Source of the DNA: Rhodobacterales bacterium
GTDB lineage: Bacteria; Pseudomonadota; Alphaproteobacteria; Rhodobacterales; Rhodobacteraceae
Length of the DNA stretch: 36,232 nt
Reading direction: 5' to 3'
NCBI GenBank assembly: GCA_013297695.1
Contig: JAAFHX010000017.1
Span: forward strand, 1 to 36,232
Part shown: positions 10,076 through 13,758 of the stretch, piece after piece
How the letters are laid out: each line of letters begins with the position of its first letter
Position numbering within the stretch: the first letter of the stretch is position 1
Program-made: the position numbers and the translations under genes
Notes under the pieces: model-generated
Databases searched by the model: none
The model's input: only the letters and a program-made list of their open reading frames with translations
What the model was told of the DNA's origin: nothing

Positions 10076-10762
10076 ATGAAACGGTCGCGGATCAACGCCA
10101 TCATCGCCGACGCAGACGACCTGATCCGCCGTCACGGCTTTGCCCTGCCGCCCTTTGCCCGGTGGACCCCGTCCGGGTTCGTGGCCAACAAGGACCGGGC
10201 CGGGGCGATCACCTCGGCCCGACTGGGCTGGGACATCACCGATTTCGGGCAGGGCCGCTTTGACACGATGGGGCTGTTCCTGTTCACCCTGCGCAACGGG
10301 CGACTTGCCGACCTGCGGCGCGGCGGTGGCATGGTCTATGCCGAAAAGCTGCTGATCGCCCGGCAGGATCAGTGGACGCCGATGCACACCCACATCATCA
10401 AGGCCGAAGATATCATCAACCGGGGCGGGGCAAGGCTGGCGGTAAAGCTGTATGGGTCTGACGCTCAGGGGCGGTTCGACAAGACACGGGGTGGCACCGT
10501 GTTCTGCGACGGTATGGCGCGGGACTTTGCGCCGGGCGAGGTTCTTCTGCTGTCCCCGGGTGAAAGCGTCACGCTGCTGCCGGGGGACTGGCATGCCTTT
10601 TGGGGCGAAGGCGGCGATGTGCTGATCGGCGAGGTTTCGACCGTGAACGACGATGTGACCGACAACATCTTTGTCGCCCCCGTTGGCCGGTTTGCCGAGA
10701 TCGAGGAAGACGAGGCCCCGATGCATCTGCTGGTCAGCGACTATGACCGCTGGCTGGCCTGA
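10076..10762 (+). CDS. D-lyxose/D-mannose isomerase family protein (cupin)
   Basis: A 228-residue cupin enzyme resembling D-lyxose isomerase, which interconverts D-lyxose and D-xylulose (and often D-mannose and D-fructose) using Mn(II) or another divalent metal. The visible metal ligands are His104 and His106 in TPMHTHIIKAEDIINRGG, Glu111, and His173 in LLPGDWHAFWGE. The length matches the family. GGGGA lies six bases before ATG 10076. It follows the MATE gene after 34 bases, so read-through is possible, but no other sugar gene is near and the physiological substrate is unknown. Its last 22 bases overlap the end of the convergent sigma-factor gene. Confidence 0.82.
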   Translation: MKRSRINAIIADADDLIRRHGFALPPFARWTPSGFVANKDRAGAITSARLGWDITDFGQGRFDTMGLFLFTLRNGRLADLRRGGGMVYAEKLLIARQDQWTPMHTHIIKAEDIINRGGARLAVKLYGSDAQGRFDKTRGGTVFCDGMARDFAPGEVLLLSPGESVTLLPGDWHAFWGEGGDVLIGEVSTVNDDVTDNIFVAPVGRFAEIEEDEAPMHLLVSDYDRWLA

Positions 10763-11970
10763 GAAAGTCGCGCCGCCAGCCAGGCCCGAAGGGCCGCATC
10801 CCCGGTCAGACCCATGGCCCGATGCAGGGCCTGTGCCTGCCCCACCTTGTCGCCCATCCGCGCCAGCGCCTCGGCACGCAGCGCCCACCAGGGCTGGAAC
10901 CCCTGCGCCCCGGTCAGGGCATCCAGCGCGGCCAGCGCCGCTTTTGGGCCGTCCAGTTCCAGCGTGACGGCGGCGGCGGCTGTCGCCCCGCCAAGGCTGG
11001 GCGACAGCCGGTCAAGGGCGGCATGCAGTGTCGCAAGCGCGGGCCAGTTGGTCCGCCCCAGCATCGCCCCTTCGCTGTGCACCGACTGGATTGCTGCTTC
11101 GCACTGGAAACGGCCAAAGTGGCCCATGGCTGCCGCATCGGCCAGCAGACGGTCGGCCCGGTGGATCATGCGGTGGTCCCATAAAGCCGTATCTTGTTCG
11201 AAAACTGCAAGATACTGCCCGTTTCTTGCCGGTTCCCGCGCCCGGATATGCAGTATAAGGGAAAGCAGCCCCTTGGGCTCCGGCTGGTCCGGGGTCAGGT
11301 CGGCCAGCAGTTCCGCCAGATAGATCGCTTCAGACGCAAGATCTGCGCGGGCGGGGTCCGACCCCGGAACCGCCTCCCAGCCAAGCGCGGCGGCGGCAAG
11401 CACCGCCTCCATGACCTGCGGAAGGCGAGGGCCGATCTCGTCGGGGTCGGGCCGGGAAAAGCGTGCGCCCGCCTCGCGCAGGCGGGTCTTGGCGCGTGAC
11501 AGGCGCTGCCCCATGGTGGCGGGCGAGATCAGGAAGGCCCCCGCGATGCGCTCGGCCGACAGGCCCAGCACGGCCTGCAGCATCAGCGGGGTCTGGGTGC
11601 CGGGGTCGATGGCCGGATGGGTGCATGCGAACAGAAGGCCCAGCCGATGGTCGGGAAAGGCATCGGGCATGGCACTTGCCTCGTCGGTCAGCAGGGTCAG
11701 GTCCGGCAGGGCTGCGGCGGCGGTGGCAGCCCGGGCGCGGGCATGGCCCGCCGCCCGTTTCGCCGCCGTCATCAGCCAGGCTTCGGGTCGGTCGGGCACG
11801 CCGCGCCGGGGCCAGGTTTCCAGTGCGGCCCGCAGCGCCTCGGACAAGGCATCCTCTGCCGCGGCCAGATCGCAATTGCGTGCCGCGAGCAGCGCCACCA
11901 GCCGCCCATAGGCCGCGCGCACCGCCCGTTCCGCGGCAGCCTGCGCGGCGTCTGGCGCGGGCGGGGTCAC
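10741..11970 (-). CDS. ECF sigma factor with C-terminal extension (ECF42 type)
   Basis: An extracytoplasmic-function sigma factor of 409 residues, far longer than the usual 170-200. Region 2 is near residues 10-75 (AAEDALSEALRAALETWPRRGVPDRPEAWLMTAAKRAA). Region 4 is near 130-165 (MLQAVLGLSAERIAGAFLISPATMGQRLSRAKTRL). The remainder is the DUF6596/TPR-like domain typical of ECF42 (NGQYLAVFEQDTALWDHRMI, then helical repeats). The ORF track extends to 12246, but the true start is GTG 11970, overlapping the stop of the DGPF gene as GTGA. ECF42 factors lack an anti-sigma partner and are encoded with DGPF (YCII-like) proteins, exactly as here; the C-terminal domain is thought to control activity. 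Confidence 0.92.
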   Translation of the reverse strand: MTPPAPDAAQAAAERAVRAAYGRLVALLAARNCDLAAAEDALSEALRAALETWPRRGVPDRPEAWLMTAAKRAAGHARARAATAAAALPDLTLLTDEASAMPDAFPDHRLGLLFACTHPAIDPGTQTPLMLQAVLGLSAERIAGAFLISPATMGQRLSRAKTRLREAGARFSRPDPDEIGPRLPQVMEAVLAAAALGWEAVPGSDPARADLASEAIYLAELLADLTPDQPEPKGLLSLILHIRAREPARNGQYLAVFEQDTALWDHRMIHRADRLLADAAAMGHFGRFQCEAAIQSVHSEGAMLGRTNWPALATLHAALDRLSPSLGGATAAAAVTLELDGPKAALAALDALTGAQGFQPWWALRAEALARMGDKVGQAQALHRAMGLTGDAALRAWLAARLSQASQRS

Positions 11971-12323
11971 CCCGGCATGGCCAGCACGGGGCGCACCTCG
12001 GTCGAACCCGTGGCGCTGGAGGGGGCCCTTGCAGCCCAATCCAGCGCCGCGTCCATATCGGGCACCTCGATCAGGAAGAACCCGCCCAGATGTTCCTTGA
12101 CCTCGGCGAAGGGGCCGTCCTGCACGGTGCGACCGGTGGCGCGTATCCGGACGGTGGCGGCGGTTGCGGGCGGCAGCAGGCCCGCGCCCGACACGAACAC
12201 GCCTGCCTGAGCCAGCGTTGCGCCATAGGCGGACCATCCGGCCCAATAGGTGCCCGCTTCGGCCGGGTTGTCGCGCCGCGCGAAATCGGCGGGGGTCTCA
12301 TGGCACAGGATCATGTATTGCAT
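11967..12323 (-). CDS. YCII-related DGPF-domain protein
   Basis: A 118-residue cytoplasmic protein starting MQYMILCHETPADFARRDNP and carrying the family motif at residues 69-72 in VQDGPFAEVKEHLGGFFLIEVPDMDAALDWA. DGPF proteins have a ferredoxin-like YCII fold and accompany ECF42 sigma factors; their role is unknown, though they are usually the main targets of that sigma factor. The start is supported by GAGGA, which overlaps the stop codon of the upstream gene. Its own stop overlaps the sigma-factor GTG (GTGA), so the three genes are translationally linked. Confidence 0.92.
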   Translation of the reverse strand: MQYMILCHETPADFARRDNPAEAGTYWAGWSAYGATLAQAGVFVSGAGLLPPATAATVRIRATGRTVQDGPFAEVKEHLGGFFLIEVPDMDAALDWAARAPSSATGSTEVRPVLAMPG

Positions 12324-12332
12324 GGCTTTTCC

Positions 12333-12710
12333 TCACATTCCGGGGGCGGCGATGGTGGCGCGAACCTCGACCCCTGCGGCGGGCAATCGCGCCGCCCAGC
12401 CTGCGGCGGCGGCGGCATCGGCCACGTCGATCAGGAAAAAGCCGCCAAACACCAGCGCGCTCGGGTCGGTCGCGGTGCCGACCTGCGCAACCGGCGTCGG
12501 AACCAGTGCCGCCCCGCCCCGCAGGACCCCGGCTGCGGCGGCCTGCTTGCCGAAATCGGCATAGGCGGCCCAATAGGACTGCCCCTTTGCCCCGGCATCG
12601 CTGCGCAAGGCAATCTGCGCCGGTGTTTCGTGGATCAGAAGGACAAAGGGTTCGGCAAGGGCCGGGCCAATGCCAAGGCAAAGGGCCAAGGCCAGAGCGG
12701 CGGATTTCAT
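12333..12710 (-). CDS. Exported YCII/DGPF-like paralogue
   Basis: A 125-residue protein with a clear signal peptide, MKSAALALALCLGIGPALA, cut before EPF. The mature part aligns with the neighbouring DGPF protein: FVLLIHETPAQIALR matches YMILCHETPADFARR, SYWAAYADFGKQAAAAGVLRGGAALVP matches TYWAGWSAYGATLAQAGVFVSGAGLLP, and GGFFLIDVADAAAAAGWAARLP matches GGFFLIEVPDMDAALDWAARAP. The DGPF loop itself is lost (ATDPSALVFGGFF). The ORF track start at 12809 crosses the promoter; ATG 12710 with AGGTG upstream gives the signal peptide. It is first in the operon, nine bases before the DGPF gene. A periplasmic member in an ECF42 operon is unusual; its role is unknown. Confidence 0.85.
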   Translation of the reverse strand: MKSAALALALCLGIGPALAEPFVLLIHETPAQIALRSDAGAKGQSYWAAYADFGKQAAAAGVLRGGAALVPTPVAQVGTATDPSALVFGGFFLIDVADAAAAAGWAARLPAAGVEVRATIAAPGM

Positions 12711-12719
12711 CGTTTTCAC

Positions 12720-12762
12720 CTCATCAGGACAGGGCCGCACCATGCGGTCCTGAACTGATGAG
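12720..12762. repeat. 43-bp imperfect inverted repeat before the DGPF operon
   Basis: Two 20-base arms around a three-base centre, matching at 17 of 20 positions. The outer eight bases, CTCATCAG and CTGATGAG, match perfectly. The inner end, on the minus strand, runs into GAGG of the ribosome site of the exported protein. It sits just downstream of the TGTCGA element. It could be a DNA-binding site or, if transcribed in full, a hairpin that hides the ribosome site. Confidence 0.7.
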
Positions 12763-12777
12763 CGGCGCGCCATCGGC

Positions 12778-12786
12778 ATTTCGACA
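12778..12786 (-). promoter_or_regulatory. Candidate ECF42-type -35 element
   Basis: TGTCGAAAT on the minus strand, 71 bases before the ATG of the first operon gene. TGTCGA is, as I recall it, the conserved -35 motif of ECF42-dependent promoters of DGPF genes. A clear -10 match is not evident at the expected distance (the region reads CGCTC). The inference is that the sigma factor drives its own operon. Confidence 0.55.
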
Positions 12787-12824: not shown

Positions 12825-13637
12825 TCAGATCACGACCGGCGGGGGAACCGGCACTTCGGGCAGAACCGGTTCGCCAAAGGGGGCGGGCGCTGCCGGATTG
12901 GCTGCAGGCCTGGGCTTCACCGCCACAGGCTTCGGGGCTGCAGGGGGCAGCGAAAGCCCCGTCGGCATCTGCCCGTCGCGGGTCATCACGATGACCTTCG
13001 CCCCATCCGGCACGCGCGAATACAGGTCGATCACGTCCTGGTTTATCATCCGGATGCAGCCGGACGACGCATTGCGCCCGATCGACCGCCATTCCGGTGT
13101 GCCGTGGATGCGGTAGCCGTAATCGATCCCGTTCGTCTGAAGGTACAGCGCCCGGGCCCCAAGCGGGTTCTCCGGCCCGCCCGGCTGGCCGTTCGCCCAT
13201 TTCGCCAGTTCCGGCTTGCGCGCGATCATCTCGGGTGGCGGGGTCCAGTTCGGCCAGGTCTTGCGACCCGAAATCACGGCCTCTCCGGACCATTCAAAAC
13301 CGTCCCGCCCGACCGCGATGCCATAGCGGATCGCCTCGTTCGGGCCGGTGACCAGATGCAACTGCCGCAGTGCCGGGTTGATGATGATCGTGCCGGGGGC
13401 CTGATCTGTCGGATATACAACTGTCTGCCGCCGGAATTCGGGCGGAATTTCATCCACCGGCAGCGCCGGGATCGAGAACGGCCCGTCCTGACGCGAGACA
13501 TAGATGGTGTCGGGGGCGGGGACCTCGACAGGTACGGGTGCTGCGGCCATCGTGACCGTCGGTCCGCCCGGAACACATCCTGCAACGGTCAGCGACAGAA
13601 GCCCTGCCACGACCAGCCTGCCCGTAAGCCCCACCAT
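12825..13637 (-). CDS. L,D-transpeptidase lipoprotein (YkuD/ErfK family)
   Basis: A 270-residue envelope enzyme of the YkuD fold, which makes 3-3 peptidoglycan cross-links or attaches proteins to peptidoglycan. The start at ATG 13637 yields MVGLTGRLVVAGLLSLTVAGC, a good lipobox with lipidated Cys21. The catalytic signature is YRIHGTPEWRSIGRNASSGCIRM, with His178 and the nucleophile Cys194. Between residues 82 and 125 lies the usual N-terminal YkuD strand (TIIINPALRQLHLV). The C-terminal 40 residues are Pro/Ala-rich and probably a flexible tail. The ORF track start (TTG 13709) lacks support. It stands behind kynA after 121 bases and probably has its own promoter. Which cross-link it forms is not shown. 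Confidence 0.9.
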   Translation of the reverse strand: MVGLTGRLVVAGLLSLTVAGCVPGGPTVTMAAAPVPVEVPAPDTIYVSRQDGPFSIPALPVDEIPPEFRRQTVVYPTDQAPGTIIINPALRQLHLVTGPNEAIRYGIAVGRDGFEWSGEAVISGRKTWPNWTPPPEMIARKPELAKWANGQPGGPENPLGARALYLQTNGIDYGYRIHGTPEWRSIGRNASSGCIRMINQDVIDLYSRVPDGAKVIVMTRDGQMPTGLSLPPAAPKPVAVKPRPAANPAAPAPFGEPVLPEVPVPPPVVI

Positions 13638-13758
13638 CTGCCTGATCCTCTTGCGTCTTGTTGCGTTCCGACGCCACGCGCCGATCCGATTGCCGCGCAG
13701 AATACTCAACCCACCGCCAAGATTCCAGCGGATAGACCGAAGAATTCGGGGATATCGG

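Follow-up and report, generated by a model that had tools for sequence, protein, structure and literature searches.

A putative exported YCII protein as the first gene of an ECF42 sigma factor operon in Rhodobacteraceae

The switching of ECF42 sigma factors and the set of genes under their control are open questions. Their activity depends on a C-terminal extension whose partner is still to be identified, and a role in their regulation has been suggested for the neighbouring YCII protein (PMC8999054). The locus described here, from a Rhodobacterales bacterium, lies in a stretch of 36,232 nucleotides (contig JAAFHX010000017.1; the window), in which a first-pass annotation had placed an ECF42-type operon at 10741-12710 that opens with an exported YCII/DGPF-like paralogue. 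What might such a protein do beside a sigma factor of this group? The open reading frames and Pfam matches agreed with these coordinates and gene identities, and the first gene does encode a YCII paralogue, with a conserved signal peptide (Table 1).

Table 1. Features of the operon and its promoter in the window
Feature	Positions	Strand	Details
Exported (predicted) YCII protein, 125 aa	12333..12710	minus	ATG at 12710, stop 12333-12335
Cytoplasmic YCII/DGPF protein, 118 aa	11967..12323	minus	QDGPFAEVKE motif
ECF42 sigma factor, 409 aa	10741..11970	minus	GTG start at 11970, stop 10741-10743
ECF42-type promoter	12758..12786	minus	-35 TGTCGA 12786-12781, 17-bp spacer, -10 GCTCAT 12763-12758

The operon and its three products

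The genes are tightly packed in the 5' to 3' order exported YCII, DGPF protein, ECF42 sigma factor, with a gap of 9 nt between the first two and an overlap (GTGA) between the DGPF stop and the GTG start of the sigma factor gene. The 5' neighbour of the operon is a co-oriented L,D-transpeptidase gene (12825-13709), and the 3' neighbour is a convergent D-lyxose isomerase gene. The sigma factor matched Sigma70_r4_2 above the Pfam cut-off and Sigma70_r2 with 23.4 bits against a cut-off of 24, and carries a C-terminal extension of about 230 residues with DUF6596 (Pfam E=2.1e-21), in line with the DUF6596/TPR-rich extension of about 200 residues that marks the group; the adjacent YCII/DGPF gene, a trait of the ECF42 group, is present as the overlapping DGPF gene. 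A PDB search with the sigma factor as query returned no match. The DGPF protein is a YCII protein (PF03795; Pfam E=3.2e-17) whose model (pLDDT 92.8) has the YCII fold and matches best, at 38% identity, PDB entry 1s7i (PA1349); the residues that are invariant among DGPF proteins sit in the DGPF hairpin.

The ECF42 operons of S. venezuelae (Sven_0747), P. putida (ECF-10) and S. meliloti (RpoE10) also have a DGPF/YCII gene followed by a sigma factor with a long C-terminal extension, and their promoter type, TGTCGR-N17-CGTC, is like that of the window in kind (PMC8999054, PMC6180224). Compared with them, the window operon has an extra exported YCII gene in first position, GCTC rather than CGTC as its -10, and a changed region 2.4. 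The ECF42 papers that we found do not mention an exported YCII protein. Classical pairs of ECF sigma factors and membrane anti-sigma factors likewise encode an extracytoplasmic component together with the sigma factor; unlike them, the window operon encodes no transmembrane or anti-sigma protein.

The first gene product begins with a Sec signal peptide, MKSAALALALCLGIGPALA, the mature protein starting, as read from the sequence, at about EPF. It matches YCII (PF03795) with E=1.4e-5 and 25.9 bits (curated Pfam cut-off 24), and is 42% identical to the DGPF protein (BLASTP E=3e-20 in a single pairwise comparison). Nine such proteins were compared, those of the window and of loci L036, L037, L038, L039, L040, L060, L061 and L064. 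By direct reading and hydropathy, all nine show a stretch of 14-20 hydrophobic, uncharged residues near the N-terminus, with a small-X-Ala cleavage site just ahead of the YCII domain, and eight have K or R within the first five residues (L036 does not). Their cytoplasmic DGPF partners start directly at the domain, none of them with a signal-peptide-type N-terminus. With the same N-terminal features in every homologue, the clear signal peptide seen in the first pass is well founded, and the predicted export of the protein is supported by its conservation. A chance or mis-annotated start was rejected, since signal peptide, promoter and gene order recur across genera.

The AlphaFold model of the exported protein (mean pLDDT 86.7) has the YCII alpha/beta fold, with a confident mature part and a first stretch of 19 residues that is unstructured and of low confidence; its best PDB match is 1s7i (PA1349), followed by 1mwq (HI0828) and 4lbh (TftG). 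Comparison of the two predicted structures, which had been proposed as a check, revealed a common YCII fold, in the exported protein without the two-strand hairpin that bears DGPF. None of the nine exported proteins has this DGP[FY] hairpin, in agreement with the earlier claim that the DGPF loop had been lost. With the YCII/YciI family (PF03795; HI0828, PA1349, TftG) the exported protein thus shares fold and Pfam match, but a signal peptide has been added, the hairpin is missing and no invariant His was found: position 27 is His in only six of the nine, and no invariant catalytic residue was identified. The exported proteins do have a conserved set, E28/R36/D38/Y46-W47. We know of no biochemical function for exported YCII proteins. 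Values of dN/dS (NG86) were about 0.13-0.34 for the exported YCII and about 0.07-0.17 for the DGPF partner, and the exported gene is, by this measure, under purifying selection.

Distribution and ancestry

Homologues with a signal peptide and without the DGPF motif were found in eight more genomes or contigs, all Rhodobacteraceae-type, and wherever the contig continues the gene adjoins DGPF and ECF42 genes. The gene order is the same in Fertoeibacter niger, a Rhodobacter MAG, UBA996, Co_bin.241 and Roseicyclus-type genomes, so that the exported gene, whose conservation beside ECF42 in relatives the first-pass annotation had made its test, recurs in several genera. The family search (397 genomes) gave six intact cases, the window included, and one decayed (L041, G316); DGPF and ECF42 genes, or their remains, adjoin the exported gene in all of them. 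Further Roseicyclus-type genomes came from a collection-wide scan and an order-wide search, as did one uncultured Rhodobacteraceae contig, the end of which falls within the exported gene. In the decayed operon (L041, 5682-6785) the promoter is kept, the exported YCII is truncated, and the DGPF gene and sigma region 2 are deleted.

DUF6596 (ECF42) occurs in 82 of the 397 family genomes, and the exported form is therefore a minority variant; all seven genomes with an exported YCII (one decayed) are among these 82 carriers (hypergeometric p=1.3e-5, ignoring kinship). Within the window's genus, none of the six other genomes has an exported YCII. A general occurrence of exported YCII proteins was rejected, as a phylum-wide search gave, among the matches listed, only cytoplasmic DGPF proteins and no further exported case, and a mobile origin was rejected, plasmids and phages having given no match.

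All nine exported proteins group together in the YCII tree, in one clade with support of 100/100, and the exported protein is, on this tree, of single origin. In the ECF42 tree the sigma factors of the exported loci fall within one supported clade of 14 rows, in which two label changes are needed, a distribution compatible with one gain plus losses. Three other ECF42 operons (L044, 5808-6888; L067; L069) likewise have two YCII genes ahead of one sigma factor, their cytoplasmic DGPF gene having been duplicated in tandem; unlike those of the window, both copies retain the DGP motif and lack a signal peptide, and the tree makes the duplication an independent one.

Promoter and sigma factor region 2.4

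The pattern TGTCGA-N17-GCTCAT has a single match in the window, where shuffled sequences gave an expectation of 0, and this match is also the only one in the whole genome of the organism. In nine loci a TGTCGA-N17-GCTC promoter lies 74-86 bp 5' of the exported gene, with a near variant of the -35, TGTCAA, in L061. For S. meliloti the ECF42 motif has been mapped as TGTCGG-N17-CGTCAT at SMb20475 (PMC6180224), and the window promoter is its counterpart. The -35 and spacing in the window are those of TGTCGA-N17-CGTC, a form common in the ECF42 group though not obligatory there, with GCTC as -10 instead. The fetched loci contained 43 ECF42 promoter sites ahead of YCII genes, and the spacer was 17 in all of them, with 16-18 allowed. 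The -10 was GCTC in the exported operons (9/9, decayed L041 counted) and CGTC in 31 of the 34 cytoplasmic-only ECF42 operons.

Region 2.4 of the window sigma factor reads WLMTAAKRAAGH. Two adjacent positions in this region go with the -10: G-x with GCTC (9/9), x-D with CGTC (26/26) and M-Q with CCTC (2/2). This pairing had no exception in 37 loci, which are related sequences and therefore represent few evolutionary events rather than 37 independent ones. The co-change ties the promoter to this sigma factor. Judged from these loci, GCTC is a subgroup dialect of the ECF42 -10 that goes with a changed region 2.4, and the pair may be a natural promoter-specificity switch.

Eight genomes were searched in full with TGTCGR-N17-GCTCAT: six had the site at the operon, a single stray site turned up in all eight together, and the reversed-pattern control gave 0 matches; G149 and G680 deviate from the strict GCTCAT. 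At strict matching, this predicted promoter form is nearly absent elsewhere in the genome. The search for further targets of the sigma factor gave, with the strict patterns, essentially its own operon; weaker targets can escape a strict motif, and targets could be missing because the window's own assembly is 84% complete. A looser pattern also matched second ECF42 operons (G375, G400) and scattered sites in the other genomes. These second operons (G375 C11:528373, G400 C85:44218) are ordinary ones with CGTC promoters, in genomes that have the exported variant.

Possible roles of the exported protein

The explanation we favour, and hold to be somewhat better than evenly likely, is an ECF42 module that transcribes itself and whose YCII paralogue became a secreted product, a periplasmic output arm. 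The switch would be the cytoplasmic DGPF protein together with the C-terminal extension of the sigma factor, as proposed for ECF42 generally. Once switched on, the sigma factor would transcribe mainly its own operon, giving more sigma factor, more DGPF protein and the periplasmic YCII, the only non-regulatory product found. Since the YCII fold and E28/R36/D38/Y46-W47 are kept and the DGPF hairpin is lost, the exported protein would most likely bind or convert a small molecule in the periplasm rather than contact the sigma factor, and it is probably an output of that kind. The predicted promoter puts it first among the products of the sigma factor, a place that suits an output no less well than it would an input.

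The first-pass annotation had speculated on two-compartment sensing or signalling. As a periplasmic sensor, the exported YCII would bind an outside signal and control the sigma factor through an unlinked membrane protein. That its gene is always linked with that of an ECF sigma factor lacking a linked anti-sigma factor speaks for this, as does the homology to the cytoplasmic partner, which suggests similar ligands. As stated, however, the proposal found no support: there is no transmembrane gene in the operon to relay a signal, the promoter makes the exported protein a product of the sigma factor, and it is missing from most ECF42 operons (7 genomes have it, against 82 with ECF42). We consider sensing possible but unlikely. 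YCII proteins form dimers, and a precursor building up at slow Sec export might pair with its homologue, the DGPF protein encoded 9 nt away, and alter the sigma factor, so that the module would read export capacity. No membrane transducer would be necessary, but the exported YCII lacks precisely the hairpin in which the residues invariant among DGPF proteins sit, and such feedback seems to us distinctly unlikely. An uncleaved precursor that interferes with the DGPF-sigma pair, by which a sigma factor without an anti-sigma factor would sense the envelope or Sec export, is a very unlikely variant.

We give little credence to a function in peptidoglycan maintenance shared with the L,D-transpeptidase next door. 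The transpeptidase gene adjoins the operon upstream in the window, L036 and L061 and downstream in L037 (3362-4348), but was not found beside it in L038 (where the contig ends early), L039, L040 and L060, and in the window it lies outside the promoter-driven unit. Its upstream position in three loci and downstream position in L037 look as if the operon had moved by one gene. That the exported gene is a decaying duplicate without function we regard as highly improbable: it evolves faster than its DGPF partner and the operon is broken in L041, but the decay there hits the whole operon rather than the exported gene alone, dN/dS is well below 1, and signal peptide and promoter are kept across genera, a conservation that largely refutes this reading.

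What is new here is that one Rhodobacteraceae branch appears to have gained a secreted copy of the usual ECF42 partner as the first gene of the operon. The resulting subgroup is a very small circuit, with one clear promoter and three products, one of them predicted to be extracytoplasmic, so that deleting the three genes would allow input, switch and output to be told apart. The joint change in the -10 and region 2.4 would in turn offer a directly testable natural specificity switch.
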